A stretch of 61,739 bases of DNA from Longimicrobium sp. Its GTDB lineage: Bacteria; Gemmatimonadota; Gemmatimonadetes; Longimicrobiales; Longimicrobiaceae. Shown piece by piece: positions 48,277 through 61,739 of the stretch. The translations under genes were made by a program, and so were the position numbers. The stretch spans positions 1 through 61,739 of the forward strand of contig DASVTZ010000178.1 of NCBI GenBank assembly GCA_036387335.1, written 5' to 3'. How positions within the stretch are numbered: the first letter of the stretch is position 1; the number at the start of each line of letters is the position of its first letter. The notes below the pieces were generated by a model. It was not told the DNA's origin. It searched no databases and saw only the letters and a program-made list of their open reading frames with translations.

Positions 48277-48640
48277 AAAAGCAGTGCCAAGTGCCAAGTG
48301 CTCAGTGCCCAGTTGTGCCGATGCCCCTCCCTGCCCAGGCGAGTGAACTCGCGGCAACAACAGCACAAAGTCCGCCTGCGCGGACTCCGCGAGAAGATCC
48401 GGGTTCGGGGCGCGATTCACCGCGCCCACACCCGCCCCCCGCCGAATCCGTAGGGGCGCGATTCATCGCGCCCGTGCCCTCCCCCGCACCGCCCCCGCCA
48501 TCGCGCACACCGACGCCCGTAGGGGCAGACCTGCGTGTCTGCCCACCCTCGCCCCCACCCCGACGCCCGCCCCTCGCACACAAATCCCGTAGGGGCGGCC
48601 CCGCGTGGCCGCCCGTGCCCTCCCCCGCACCGCCGCCGGC
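48277..48640. repeat. Composite repeat cassette between miaA and bshA
   Basis: 364 bases without a gene. It begins with AGTGCCAAGTGCCAAGTGCT units at 48283-48313. Next is CGAGTGAACTCGCGGCAACA and a hairpin AGTCCGCCTGCGCGGACT (48340-48387), identical to 51426-51473. Then come GTAGGGGCGCGATTCATCGC at 48450, GTAGGGGCAGACCTGCGTGT at 48519 and GTAGGGGCGGCCCCGCGTGG at 48589. The order of the last three matches 23335-23500 and the last two match 61553-61656. Confidence 0.78.
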
Positions 48641-49579
48641 CTACCCCGCCCCCACCCTCTCCCCCCACGCGGAAACGATTACGTCCGCCAGTTCCGCACG
48701 CGGCCGCGTCGCATCCAGCCAAACCGCCCCCGGCGGCAACTGCGTGCGGTACCAGGTGAGCTGCCTGCGCGTGTAGTCGCGCGTGTTCTTGCGGGCCAGC
48801 TCCAGCGCATCCTCAAGCGACCGCTCGCCGCGAAGGAACGGCATCAGCTCCGCGTAACCGTGCGCGTTCAGCCCGGGCGCCGCTTCGCCGTAGCGGGCCA
48901 CCAGCGCGCGCACCTCCTCCACCAGCCCCGCCTCCGCCATCTCCGTCATGCGCCGGTTGATCCCCGCGTACAGCAAATCGCGCGGCACCTCGAGGACCAC
49001 GGGGAGCACCTCCATCGGGGGCGCTTCCGGGGGGGAGTTGCGCTGCCACCAGGTGAGCGAGCGGCCCGTGAGCAGCGCCACCTCCAACGCCCGCATCAGC
49101 CGCTGCCGCCCGCCGCCGCGGCTCAGCCTCTCCGCCGCCTCCGGGTCGTGCGGCGCAAGCCAGCGGAGGAGCTCGGCGTCGTCCATCCGCTCCATCATGC
49201 GGGTTACCCGCGCGCGCGCCGCCGGGTCCAGCACCGGCTCGCCGAAGATGGGGTGCGTGAGGGCGCGCAGAAAGAACCCGGTCCCCCCCACCAGCATCGG
49301 CACGCGGCCGCGCGCGCGGATCTCGGCCACCTTCTCACGCGCATACCGTGCCCAGCGCCCGGCGCCGAAGCGCTCCGACGGCTCCACCAGGTCGATCCCC
49401 CAGTGCGGGATCTCGCCGCGCTCCGCAAGAGTCGGCTTGGCGGTGCCGATGTCCATCCCGCGGAACACCGAGCGCGAGTCCATCGACACGATCTCGCCGT
49501 CGAGCCGCCGCGCGACCTCGATGGAGAGCGCCGTCTTCCCCGAGCCCGTGGGCCCAGTGATGGCCAGCGCCTCCGTCAC
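48641..49579 (-). CDS. miaA: tRNA dimethylallyltransferase MiaA
   Basis: A 312-residue enzyme that adds a prenyl group to A37 of tRNAs reading UNN codons. GPTGSGKTALSIEVARRL is the P-loop region, followed by SMDSRSVFRGMDIGTAKPT and LVGGTGFFLRALTHPI. The C-terminal helical part has NTRDYTRRQLTWYR. GTG 49579 overlaps the mutL stop as GTGA. The gene ends at the edge of the repeat cassette, and its last residues may be repeat-derived. Confidence 0.93.
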   Translation of the reverse strand: MTEALAITGPTGSGKTALSIEVARRLDGEIVSMDSRSVFRGMDIGTAKPTLAERGEIPHWGIDLVEPSERFGAGRWARYAREKVAEIRARGRVPMLVGGTGFFLRALTHPIFGEPVLDPAARARVTRMMERMDDAELLRWLAPHDPEAAERLSRGGGRQRLMRALEVALLTGRSLTWWQRNSPPEAPPMEVLPVVLEVPRDLLYAGINRRMTEMAEAGLVEEVRALVARYGEAAPGLNAHGYAELMPFLRGERSLEDALELARKNTRDYTRRQLTWYRTQLPPGAVWLDATRPRAELADVIVSAWGERVGAG

Positions 49580-51336
49580 CCGCTCCTCCCGAACCTCCGG
49601 TGCAGCTCCGTCAGCGAGAGCTGGACCACGGTGGGGCGCCCGTGGATGTCGTGGTACGGCAGCTCGGTGGCGAAGAGGCGGTCGAAGAGCTCGCTCATCT
49701 CGCGCTGCGACAGCTTCTGCCCGGCCTTGATGGCGCCCTTGCACGCCATCGACAGGGCAATGCGCTGGTGCTGCGTCCGCGCGGAGTCCACCAGCGGCGA
49801 TCCCTCGGTCAGCTCCGCCACCATCTCGCGCAGGCAGCGCTCCGCGTCGAAGTACGGGTGCGGCGTGGGGACGGAGTGGACGATCACCGAGCGCCCGCCG
49901 AACGGCTCCACCTGGAAGCCGGCGCCCTCCAGCAGCCCCGTGATCTGCTCCACCAGCGCGTACTCCGCGGGGGAGAGTCGCAGGGTGAGGGGAAAGAGAA
50001 GGCGCTGGCTGGAGAACTGCCGCGTTCCGAAGCCGCCCACGATCTCCTCGTACAGCACCCGCTCGTGCGCCGAGTGCTGGTCCACCAGCACGAGCCCCGT
50101 GCGCGTCTCCGCGATGATGTAGGTGTTGTGCACCTGCCACATCACCGGCGCGGATCCCAGCATCTCCCCCAGCGTCTCCGGCGCCGCGGGCGTGCTGGAC
50201 GGCTGCGCGGAGCCCGTGACGAAGAGCGTCATCTGCGGCTCCGCGACGGGTTCCGGCTCGCGCACGGACGTGACCCCCGCCTGCGCCGTCGGCTCGTACA
50301 CCGTCTGCGGATCGGGCGCGGCGCGCGCGCCGATGCTGGGCGTGCTGTCCAGACCGGCGAGGGCGGCGCGGATCCCTTCCTCCAGGATGCGCTCCACGGC
50401 CGGACGGTCGCGGAAGCGGACGTCGGCCTTGGCGGGGTGCACGTTGACGTCCACCTCGCCGTCCGGCACCTCGAAGAAGAGGAAGAGGGAGGGATAGACG
50501 CCGTGCGGGATCGTGGTGCGGTACGCCCGGTCCGCCGCGCGGATCAGCGCGCGGTCGCCGAACGACCTTCCGTTGACGAAGAGGTAGGTGCGGCGGTTGG
50601 CGGGGCGCGCGTCGTCCGGCCGCTGGATGAGCCCCGTGAGCGTGATCCCGCCGCCGCGGTGCGCCACCGAGATCATCTCGTCCGCCGACTCGTTGCCCCA
50701 GATCGCCGCCACCCGCTCCGCCACGCTGGACGCGACGGGAAGGTTGAGCGGGTCACGCCCGCCCATGTCGAGCGTGTACGCCACCGCGGGCGTAGCCAGC
50801 GCGAGCGTCGTCACCACCTCGCCGACGGCGCGGTTCTCGGCGGCGCTGGAGCGGAGGAACTTGGCGCGCGCGGGAACGTTGAAGAACAGGCTCCGCACCG
50901 ACACCGTGGTCCCGGTCCGTCTTGCGCACTCCTCCACGGCCGCGAGCTGCCCGGCCGTCACCACCACGCGCGTGCCGTCGCCATCGCGCTCCGCCGTCTC
51001 CAGCACCACCCGCGACACCGACGCGATCGACGGAAGCGCCTCGCCGCGAAACCCGAGGGTGCGGATGGCGGCCAGGTCCGCCTCCGTCCTCACCTTGCTG
51101 GTGGCGTGGCGGTCGACGGCGAGGAGGGCGTCCTCGCGCCCCATCCCCCACCCGTCGTCCGCCACGCGGATCTCCGTCTTGCCCCCGTTGCGGATCACCA
51201 CGTCCACGCGCGACGCGCCGGCATCGAGCGCGTTCTCCATCAGCTCCTTGACGACGGACGCGGGCCGCTCCACCACCTCCCCGGCGGCGATCTGGTTCGC
51301 GAGCTTCTCGGGGAGGATGTGGATCCGGCGCGGCAT
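49576..51336 (-). CDS. mutL: DNA mismatch repair protein MutL
   Basis: A 586-residue protein. The N-terminal GHKL ATPase has MENALDAGASRVDV, DDGWGMGREDA, RHATSKV and LGFRGEALPSIASV. The C-terminal domain has DQHSAHERVLYEE in place of the canonical DQHAAHERxxYE, with A changed to S, and ACKGAIKAG and HDIHGRPT near the end. The Cys of the usual CPHGRP is missing. The endonuclease site of MutL may thus be kept or weakened. The start is at ATG 51336; its mismatch partner MutS is not in the window. miaA overlaps its stop. Confidence 0.93.
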   Translation of the reverse strand: MPRRIHILPEKLANQIAAGEVVERPASVVKELMENALDAGASRVDVVIRNGGKTEIRVADDGWGMGREDALLAVDRHATSKVRTEADLAAIRTLGFRGEALPSIASVSRVVLETAERDGDGTRVVVTAGQLAAVEECARRTGTTVSVRSLFFNVPARAKFLRSSAAENRAVGEVVTTLALATPAVAYTLDMGGRDPLNLPVASSVAERVAAIWGNESADEMISVAHRGGGITLTGLIQRPDDARPANRRTYLFVNGRSFGDRALIRAADRAYRTTIPHGVYPSLFLFFEVPDGEVDVNVHPAKADVRFRDRPAVERILEEGIRAALAGLDSTPSIGARAAPDPQTVYEPTAQAGVTSVREPEPVAEPQMTLFVTGSAQPSSTPAAPETLGEMLGSAPVMWQVHNTYIIAETRTGLVLVDQHSAHERVLYEEIVGGFGTRQFSSQRLLFPLTLRLSPAEYALVEQITGLLEGAGFQVEPFGGRSVIVHSVPTPHPYFDAERCLREMVAELTEGSPLVDSARTQHQRIALSMACKGAIKAGQKLSQREMSELFDRLFATELPYHDIHGRPTVVQLSLTELHRRFGRSG

Positions 51337-51420
51337 TCGGGCTTCTTTCGGGGTGGATTCGGGTGGGGAAAGTACAGGCGGGGGTGGCGGGGGACAAGGT
51401 GGGGTTTGGCCAGGTGCGGC

Positions 51421-51735
51421 CCGGGCGAGTGAACTCGCGGCAACAACAGCACAAAGTCCGCCTGCGCGGACTCGCGGGCGGGATTCGCGCCGGGCGTGCG
51501 GTGCCGGCGCGTGCGAGAGGCCGGCACCGCCGGTCCAGGAGCGAATGAATTCGCGGCTGGAACCGCGCGAAATCCGCCTTCGCGGATTGGCTGCAGCGCT
51601 CGAGACCGCTTCAGCGGTCTTCGCGTAGTTCCAGTCGGGGGATTCATTTCATCCCCCGGTGCCAGCGACGGCCCACCCACCCCACAAAACCTGCGAAGGC
51701 AGGTTTCCCGCCGTTGTTGCAGCGGTTTCAACCGC
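51421..51735. repeat. Array of short perfect hairpins
   Basis: In the 391-base spacer between mutL and tatD lie several different palindromes with 2-7-base loops: AGTCCGCCTGCGCGGACT (51455-51472), AATCCGCCTTCGCGGATT (51571-51588), AGACCGCTTCAGCGGTCT (51603-51620), a GGGGGAT...ATCCCCC hairpin (51637-51657), AAACCTGCGAAGGCAGGTTT (51687-51706) and GCGGTTTCAACCGC (51722-51735). Sequence 51426-51473 repeats 48340-48387. No gene is visible. Confidence 0.75.
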
Positions 51736-52522
51736 CGGTCTCAGGTTTATCCGCCGGTCCCCCCACCCCGAACAACGCCCGCGCATTCGCCGTCGTCCGC
51801 GCCGCGAACTCCTCCGGATCCTCGCCGCGCAGCATGGCGGCCACCCGGGCGGTGTGGGCGACGAAGGCGGGCTCGTTGGTCTTGCCGCGGTGCGGGACGG
51901 GGGCGAGGTACGGCGCGTCCGTCTCCACCAGGATGCGGTCGGCGGGGACGCGGCGGAGGAGGTCGGCGGCGGCGAAGTTCTTGAACGTCACCATCCCGCT
52001 GAACGACGCGTACCAGCCGAGCGCCAGCGCGTCCTCCAGCAGATCCGCGCCGCTCGAAAAGGAGTGCAGCACGCCGCGCGTCCCCGCCCCGCCCTCGCGC
52101 AGCAGGGCGCGCAGGTCCTCGTCCGCCTCGCGCGCGTGGACGATGACGGGGAGCCCCGTCTCGCGGCCCAGCGCAAGGTGGCGCAGAAAGGATGCGCGCT
52201 GCACGTCGCGCGGGGCGAAGTCGTAGTGGTAGTCCAGCCCCGCCTCGCCGATGGCGACGACGCGCGGATGGTCGAGAAGGGCGCGGACGGCGGCGAATGC
52301 CTCATCCGTAGCCGTCGAGGCGGCGTGCGGGTGGATGCCGGCCGTGGCGTAGACGCCCGGGAAGCGTTCCGCCAGCGCCACCACCACGCGCGCGTCCTCC
52401 ACGCCCGTGGCGATGGCGACGATGGTCTCCACCGCCGCCGCACGCGCGCGCTCCACGACTCCGTCCACGTCCGCAAGGAGGCGCTCGTCCGCCAGGTGGG
52501 CATGCGTGTCGATCAACATCAT
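51728..52522 (-). CDS. tatD: TatD family metal-dependent hydrolase
   Basis: A 264-residue TIM-barrel deoxyribonuclease-like protein. It has the metal-binding pattern DTHAHLADE, AIGEAGLDYHYD, PVIVHAREADEDL, GVLHSFSSGADL and VETDAPYLAPVPHRG. Members are linked to DNA quality control or 3'-5' exonuclease activity. The last bases overlap a GCGGTTTCAACCGC repeat. It lies downstream of secDF, with a strong hairpin between. Confidence 0.92.
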   Translation of the reverse strand: MMLIDTHAHLADERLLADVDGVVERARAAAVETIVAIATGVEDARVVVALAERFPGVYATAGIHPHAASTATDEAFAAVRALLDHPRVVAIGEAGLDYHYDFAPRDVQRASFLRHLALGRETGLPVIVHAREADEDLRALLREGGAGTRGVLHSFSSGADLLEDALALGWYASFSGMVTFKNFAAADLLRRVPADRILVETDAPYLAPVPHRGKTNEPAFVAHTARVAAMLRGEDPEEFAARTTANARALFGVGGPADKPETGG

Positions 52523-61216: not shown

Positions 61217-61739
61217 GGCGTCCCTGTAGAGGTCGCGTATAGGATGCGGACTCTCTTGTAGAAGCGCAAGGGAAGTGGACTGGACAGGCGCTGCGAAGCT
61301 GGCAGGCGGATTAGAAGTGATGTGAAGTGCGCGGTGCAGTGGGTTAAATAGCAGTTATTTAGCCGATGTGGGTGATAACTCGGATGAGGGGGAGCGGCGC
61401 TGGTCGAGGGCCCTCACCCCCCCGGCCCCCCTCTCCCAAACTGCTGGGAGAGGGGGGAGATCGCCGTCATCCGCGCGCCGCCTGCGCGACGCTAAACGCG
61501 TGTCATCGCGCCCACCTCCGCCCCGCCGTGCCTCCGCCTTTCGCACCGATGCCGTAGGGGCAGACCTGCGTGTCTGCCCACCCCTGCCGCGCCCCGGACC
61601 TTCGCCCCCCGCACCCCGAACCCCGTAGGGGCCGCCCCACGTGGCTGCCCGTGCCCGCCCCGGCGCCGCCCCATGACACCGCACGCGAATGCACACGAAA
61701 CGCCCCTCCCCCAGGCGGTTTGGGGGGAGGGGCCGCGAG
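61217..61739. repeat. Composite repeat cassette at right edge
   Basis: 523 bases without a gene. The first 150 bases hold the PadR upstream region and a TAAATAGCAGTTATTTA palindrome near 61347. At 61408-61460 a relative of the GATAACA repeat has CTCTCCCAAACTGCTGGGAG in place of the centre. GTAGGGGCAGACCTGCGTGT is at 61553 and GTAGGGGCCGCCCCACGTGG at 61624. The last element, with CCCCTCCCCC and GGGGGGAGGGGCCGCGAG at 61705-61739, matches 23547-23580. The cassette is cut by the window edge. Confidence 0.75.

Follow-up and report, generated by a model that had tools for sequence, protein, structure and literature searches.

The array of short hairpins between mutL and tatD in Longimicrobium sp. 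(positions 51421-51735 of the window, the whole 61,739-nt stretch of DNA that was analysed) is most probably, at a probability of roughly 0.8, a fourfold composite of a REP/REPIN-like mobile repeat, dispersed and non-autonomous, which also forms the ends of transposase elements and whose likely mover is a transposase of the TnpA-Y1 subclass 1.2 type.

The tatD-mutL spacer holding the array spans 51337-51727 (391 nt) in the ORF table, between mutL (49576-51336) and tatD (51728-52522), both on the minus strand. The array consists of four copies of one 48-nt two-hairpin unit, with eight conserved hairpins in all, the unit register being taken from a covariance model, R1. Each unit is laid out as a hairpin with a TGAA loop, 1-2 bases, an 8-nt linker motif (GCAACAAC in type A, GCTGGAAC in type B), about 7 bases, and a second hairpin, with loops such as CTTC, CTGC and TGAA. 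Unit A-left (51425-51472, plus strand; R1 73.4 bits, E 1.8e-21) comprises the hairpin GCGAGTGAACTCGC (51425-51438), the motif GCAACAAC (51440-51447) and the hairpin AGTCCGCCTGCGCGGACT (51455-51472). Unit B-left (51541-51588, plus strand), formed by the hairpin GCGAATGAATTCGC (51541-51554), the motif GCTGGAAC (51556-51563) and the hairpin AATCCGCCTTCGCGGATT (51571-51588), reaches 46.2 bits (E 6.2e-13) although R1 was built without any GCTGGAAC unit. On the minus strand, unit B-right (51603-51658; R1 18.0 bits on 51603-51630) contains the hairpin AGACCGCTTCAGCGGTCT (51603-51620), the motif GTTCCAGT (51628-51635) and the hairpin CGGGGGATTCATTTCATCCCCCG (51636-51658), and its sequence matches both ends of a transposase element of the same genome, L059. 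Unit A-right (51688-51735, minus strand; R1 64.7 bits, E 9.7e-19), which overlaps the 3' end of tatD, contains the hairpin AACCTGCGAAGGCAGGTT (51688-51705), the motif GTTGTTGC (51713-51720) and the hairpin GCGGTTTCAACCGC (51722-51735). The order A+, B+, B-, A-, with the B-type pair enclosed by the A-type pair, arranges the eight hairpins as a nested palindrome; in the outer pair the two A motifs are fully complementary, and the two B motifs are so at 7 of 8 positions. A solo A-left copy, identical to 51425-51472 over 48 nt, lies in the miaA-bshA spacer (48339-48386, plus strand).

Two smaller observations concern the same spacer. The tatD stop codon (TGA, 51728-51730, minus strand) falls at the TGAA loop of A-right, so that the reading frame is terminated by the repeat, and homology to the TatD proteins of relatives stops about 6 to 13 residues before the end of tatD. 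An 11-bp perfect stem, GCGGTGCCGGC / GCCGGCACCGC, occupies 51498-51530 between A-left and B-left, outside the conserved unit.

Hairpins are commoner in G+C-rich DNA such as this spacer, but their origin by chance can be given virtually no weight here. Counting exact stems of at least 6 bp with loops of 3-8, five hairpins are present in 51421-51735, a number reached by 2 of 1000 dinucleotide shuffles, and only 2 of the 585 sliding 315-nt windows across the whole 61.7 kb hold five or more: the array, and one at 48301 that contains another copy of the array's unit. At 51425-51438, 51541-51554 and 51722-51735, the covariance model and direct reading recognised a further three conserved hairpins, whose stems of 5-6 bp enclose a TGAA/TTCA loop. 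When 51421-51740 was folded as single-stranded DNA, z was -6.0, with 0 of 100 shuffles as stable, and the centroid of the predicted fold pairs the outer GCAACAAC with GTTGTTGC. The array given in the preliminary description, together with the form xxCCGC...GCGGxx common to several of its stems, is real and beyond chance, with five hairpins by the strict rule and eight conserved in four units; that description overlooked the hairpins with TGAA loops and the linker motif, and also that the units are inverted and dispersed.

The 315-nt stretch has 51 matches in its own genome, which, with the reversed-pattern control and the covariation given below, refute a chance origin. R1 was built from 52 units picked by the 8-mer GCAACAAC, pairing not being required, and in the source genome it matched 150 of 150 scored candidates; since every candidate matched, the resulting figure of at least 150 copies is a floor. 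The units sit in both orientations at these places (at least 150), and the pattern TGAANNCGCNGCWRSAAC occurs 169 times in the genome, against 0 for its reversed control. All 5 bp of the first hairpin are paired at 75 of 82 GCAACAAC anchors, and all 7 bp of the second at 68, while among 149 control-word anchors at least 4 of 5 first-hairpin pairs were found in 2 and at least 6 of 7 second-hairpin pairs in 1. The outer border of the unit is sharp, about 3 bases before the TGAA hairpin (CCG or CAGG), and copies in the source genome share little beyond it.

At E <=0.001, R1 has matches in every one of the 10 genus genomes and in 6 of 11 other members of the family Longimicrobiaceae (genomes G010, G011, G013, G014, G015 and G018); the other families of the order, represented by 30 genomes (12 + 18), gave matches in none. 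Forty newly sampled stretches of the source genome, of which 20 rank at the top of the R1 hits and 20 belong mostly to the class below, usually hold one to three recognised units per place, full four-unit arrays being a minority; the array beside mutL is accordingly one of several composites. The arrangement met most often in these stretches is A-right followed by B-right in the same direction. In genome G005, minimal inverted pairs are numerous, their starts lying about 76 bp from each other, as in REPINs. Separately, overlapping matches about 100 bp apart at G009:C2:602007-602465 point to A and B units arrayed in tandem.

The stems of the units vary under compensation. Among 51 distinct units the share of paired cells is 91.3%, against 80.0 in shuffled alignments; cells changed on both sides number 77, against 23.8 +/- 3.6, and the covariation score is 0.355 against 0.156, neither value being reached in 500 shuffles. 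With the partner shifted by 1 to 3 columns, 4 to 9 both-side changed cells remain. Two further measures, namely the number of further pair types (13 against 15.0 shuffled) and of pairs with both-side change (7 against 5.3, reached by 47 of 500 shuffles), are respectively not above and not clearly above the shuffles. For 83 distinct units from other phyla there are 158 both-side changed cells against 38.5 shuffled, in an alignment (A5, the only one counted of the fitted alignments A3 and A5) that is biased towards the model, having been fitted to it. A further alignment, A1, was used neither for counts nor for the model, because MAFFT had misaligned its GGGGG-stem class. As the unit sequences were fetched for their resemblance to the window element or as flanks of transposase genes, they are related and not independent. 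The view that a constant shape with different stems reflects paired compensatory change is borne out on the 51 units as well as on the 83 from other phyla. Cells changed on one side only (wobble) number 12, against 77 changed on both; this scarcity may fit pairing in DNA rather than in RNA, and is only suggestive.

The strong fold, the covariation of the stems, and the position of the array between two genes on the same strand would also suit a cis-acting structured RNA, or a protein-binding array, of the mutL-tatD spacer that is kept for regulating these genes. This reading, put forward in the preliminary description, is very unlikely: at least 150 copies lie at unrelated places, in both orientations, the window contains 0 matches to Rfam families at gathering score, and the few wobble changes are, suggestively, against RNA pairing. 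The orthologous spacers of relatives point the same way. Genome G006 (TatD 94% identical) has a 305-nt spacer with A-left, B-left and B-right and no A-right; G004 (TatD 92%) has a 328-nt spacer with A-right, B-right and a divergent left part, and no A-left; and G005 (TatD 85%) has a 75-nt spacer with no unit. Two close relatives thus have a changed array and a third has none, which speaks against a mutL-tatD-specific role. There is likewise no unit in G007 and G003. The spacer of G009 holds two different units, no readable spacer was obtained for G008 and G001, and G002 gave no tatD. The solo unit of the miaA-bshA spacer is missing from the same spacer in the three nearest relatives (G006, G004 and G005), that of G006 and G004 being otherwise alignable to the source genome, and units occupy this spacer in 3 of 10 genomes (the source genome, G003 and G001). 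The unit missing from the miaA-bshA spacer of G006 and G004, and the empty tatD-mutL spacer of G005, are insertion polymorphisms that favour mobility of the unit. A locus-specific regulatory RNA was rejected for the dispersal together with the changed or empty spacers of relatives. Protein binding does not stand as a property of a mutL-tatD array, and may hold in another form, with an HUH transposase acting on folded DNA as the likely partner.

Host use offers a further account, in which the array would be a cluster of intrinsic terminators or mRNA stabilisers whose repeats are kept for that purpose. REP elements are described as often lying downstream of genes, where they may act in mRNA (PMC3733652), and hairpin clusters have been proposed as terminators (PMC8355165). 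Yet the array itself contains a single terminator-like site (a 501-nt scan gave two, against 0.6 expected), and inverted units around transposase genes are left unexplained, making this account improbable; a terminator role can be a secondary use of the repeats.

The association of the units with transposase genes is seen first in the source genome, which has two Y1_Tnp genes, L058 and L059. L059 is intact, encodes 139 aa and has an inverted copy of the type B right unit at either end, one side detected by R1 and the other by reading, while L058 (G000:C169:5970-6308) carries an in-frame TAG and likewise has units at its flanks. A type-A transposase was not found in this genome. In the sister species G005 and G006, a transposase gene (L068 and L073) is flanked by the A-left unit of the window. 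Across 21 genomes there are 30 Y1_Tnp loci. In 22 of these (21 of 26 in the genus) R1 units lie no more than 400 bp away on either side and are always inverted, a count that is partly circular because 11 of the 30 loci gave rows to R1. Such units on both sides are missing in the other eight (L059, L061, L062, L074, L080, L082, L083 and L084). Four further loci comprise two with units on both sides and two (L230 and L233) without an R1 unit.

Units and Y1_Tnp genes also co-occur at the level of genomes: 13 of the 21 family genomes have both, three have units alone (G004, G010 and G018, of which G004 and G010 are incomplete), five have neither, and none has Y1_Tnp alone (Fisher one-sided 0.003, ignoring kinship). 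Y1_Tnp matches per genome range from 0 to 6 in 21 genomes, and from 0 to 2 in 9. In genomes G003 and G008, the Y1 transposases of L086 (1165-1857) and L078 (1243-1857) run on into a C-terminal antitoxin-like domain matching TIGR02574, and PF09720 in L086, possibly a fusion or a read-on frame.

The transposase has a Y1_Tnp match of 80.9 bits and weak sequence matches to solved transposases, including that of ISHp608. Residues Y114, Q118, H121, H122, W94, Q95, D54, H55 and H57 are invariant in 22 of 22 aligned proteins, as are the motifs D-H-x-H, W-Q and Y-x3-Q-x2-HH, with A as the middle HUH residue in L059 and L064. Judged on sequence, the signature Y-x3-Q-x2-HH is the mark of subclass 1.2 and not of 1.1, and it is given as that of subclass 1.2 by Quentin and others 2018 (PMC6006769). 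The short, single-domain HUH proteins described there share with those found here DHxH (here DH[IV]H), WQ, the tyrosine signature, a low copy number per genome and an occurrence in Cyanobacteria. They differ in that the REP column of the study reads 'no' for subclass 1.2, which is described as generally without the typical terminal IS200 structures, whereas most of the genes here are bracketed by a dispersed two-hairpin inverted repeat; Gemmatimonadota are not named in the main text of PMC6006769. The REP-associated profile NF047646 (cut-off 80) gives 21.2 bits for L059, which fails it, and no match is listed for L068.

That the genes and repeats are ordinary IS200/IS605 elements with their non-autonomous derivatives is an unlikely explanation. 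In its favour, L059 (69.6) and L068 (70.2) score above the cut-off of 55 of the IS200/IS605 profile NF033573, as does a further match at 59.8, with L078 just under it at 54.9. The ends of IS200/IS605 elements are not known to be inverted repeats. Those found here are inverted copies of one two-hairpin unit, without the non-inverted, asymmetric arrangement, and all 22 aligned proteins carry the published mark of subclass 1.2. The published ends of IS200/IS605 elements have small subterminal hairpins (PMC6006769).

Beyond the family, a protein-alignment scan of genome contigs yielded at least 80 relatives of the transposase. Among the matches listed, these are largely from Cyanobacteria, Chloroflexi and Planctomycetes, with further relatives in Armatimonadota, Verrucomicrobia, Acidobacteria and more. 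Flanking inverted repeats were found among the listed matches in 59 of 80 loci at E <0.01 and in 50 of 80 at E <1e-6, while controls shifted by 1000 bp gave 0 of 72 and 4 of 68, none at <1e-6. At the listed loci there are 130 R1 matches at E <=0.01, 97 of them within 200 bp of the gene; R1 units lie on both sides in 30 of the 80, and face each other as inverted repeats in 25. One of these, L114, comes from AVDCRST_MAG68, which is identical with G005 by its match coordinates, so that the independent inverted loci listed number 24 of 79. This flank test is free of the circularity that affects the count of 22 of 30. Thirteen other genomes were searched whole, of which 11 have 20 to 76 R1 matches (138 in one) and two have none.

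The signature Y-x3-Q-x2-HH is present in 74 of the 80 relatives among the matches listed, and 56 of those 74 have inverted repeats. The listed Planctomycete, Verrucomicrobial and Acidobacterial relatives have inverted repeats and seldom R1 matches, and the two-hairpin unit is therefore not claimed for them. For Gemmatimonadota, Cyanobacteria, Chloroflexi and Armatimonadota, it seems on balance that the two-hairpin inverted repeat is an unrecognised substrate of subclass 1.2 HUH transposases, forming one system that reads shape, loop and linker. If so, the letters of the stems would be nearly free, and each genome would consequently give rise to families of compensated stems, and to nested composites, peculiar to itself.

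The units are best read as mobile repeats of REP or TIR type with two hairpins, and two known systems resemble them closely. In TIRtrons, or TIRYTs (Di Nocera and others 2013, PMC3733652), a Y1 gene is described as lying between long inverted repeats, which also occur alone, in dimers or in groups, some of these TIRs being called double palindromic; here too, a Y1 gene lies between long inverted repeats of a dispersed family. The 26 published TIRYTs are, by contrast, assigned to subclasses 2.1, 2.2 and 2.5, and not 1.2 (PMC6006769). The motif GGGGWSAS, common to some but not all published TIRs (PMC3733652), was not seen on reading the unit consensus. REPINs and their RAYT transposases, as described in PMC3116915 and PMC8266576, similarly have short palindromic units in inverted pairs, with hundreds of mostly intergenic copies and one or a few transposase genes. 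Two inverted units are the mobile form of REPINs; inverted pairs are frequent here, and either these or the solo units that occur too may be the form that moves. The present units differ in having two hairpins each, no general GTAG foot (some B-right copies read CGTAGTTCCAG, and A-type consensus units are without GTAG), and a transposase without Y-x3-NP.

Units of about 50 bp with two hairpins, set in inverted pairs as in REPINs, also make up the terminal inverted repeats of small elements that encode a single-domain Y1 HUH transposase with the signature Y-x3-Q-x2-HH. In the mechanism proposed for these mobile repeats, the transposase would recognise the folded unit (TGAA-loop hairpin, linker motif and second hairpin) when the region becomes single-stranded, nick it by way of a phosphotyrosine close to the foot of the TGAA hairpin with its sharp border, and move the segment bounded by two inverted units; the units would presumably also be replicated. 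As pairing and loop would matter more than stem letters, the stems are proposed to drift by compensatory change, and drift of this kind in separate subfamilies would account for different stems with one shape.

A link of subclass 1.2 transposases to such repeats was not found reported in the literature searched. A subclass described in 2018 as without repeats and transposon properties appears to own a dispersed, structure-conserved family of DNA, which would give a concrete substrate for asking how an HUH enzyme recognises folded DNA by its shape, and the natural compensated stem variants would form a ready-made mutational scan. It would also explain a class of hairpin repeats that abound in Gemmatimonadota, Cyanobacteria and Chloroflexi and are mistakable for regulatory RNA.

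A second repeat was noted in the window. The sequence CCGTAGGGGC occurs six times, against 0.24 expected, at sites that include 48448-48596 and 61552-61632; three copies at about 70-nt spacing lie in the miaA-bshA spacer, adjoining hairpins, and these repeats look like a separate, GTAG-tagged REP family.
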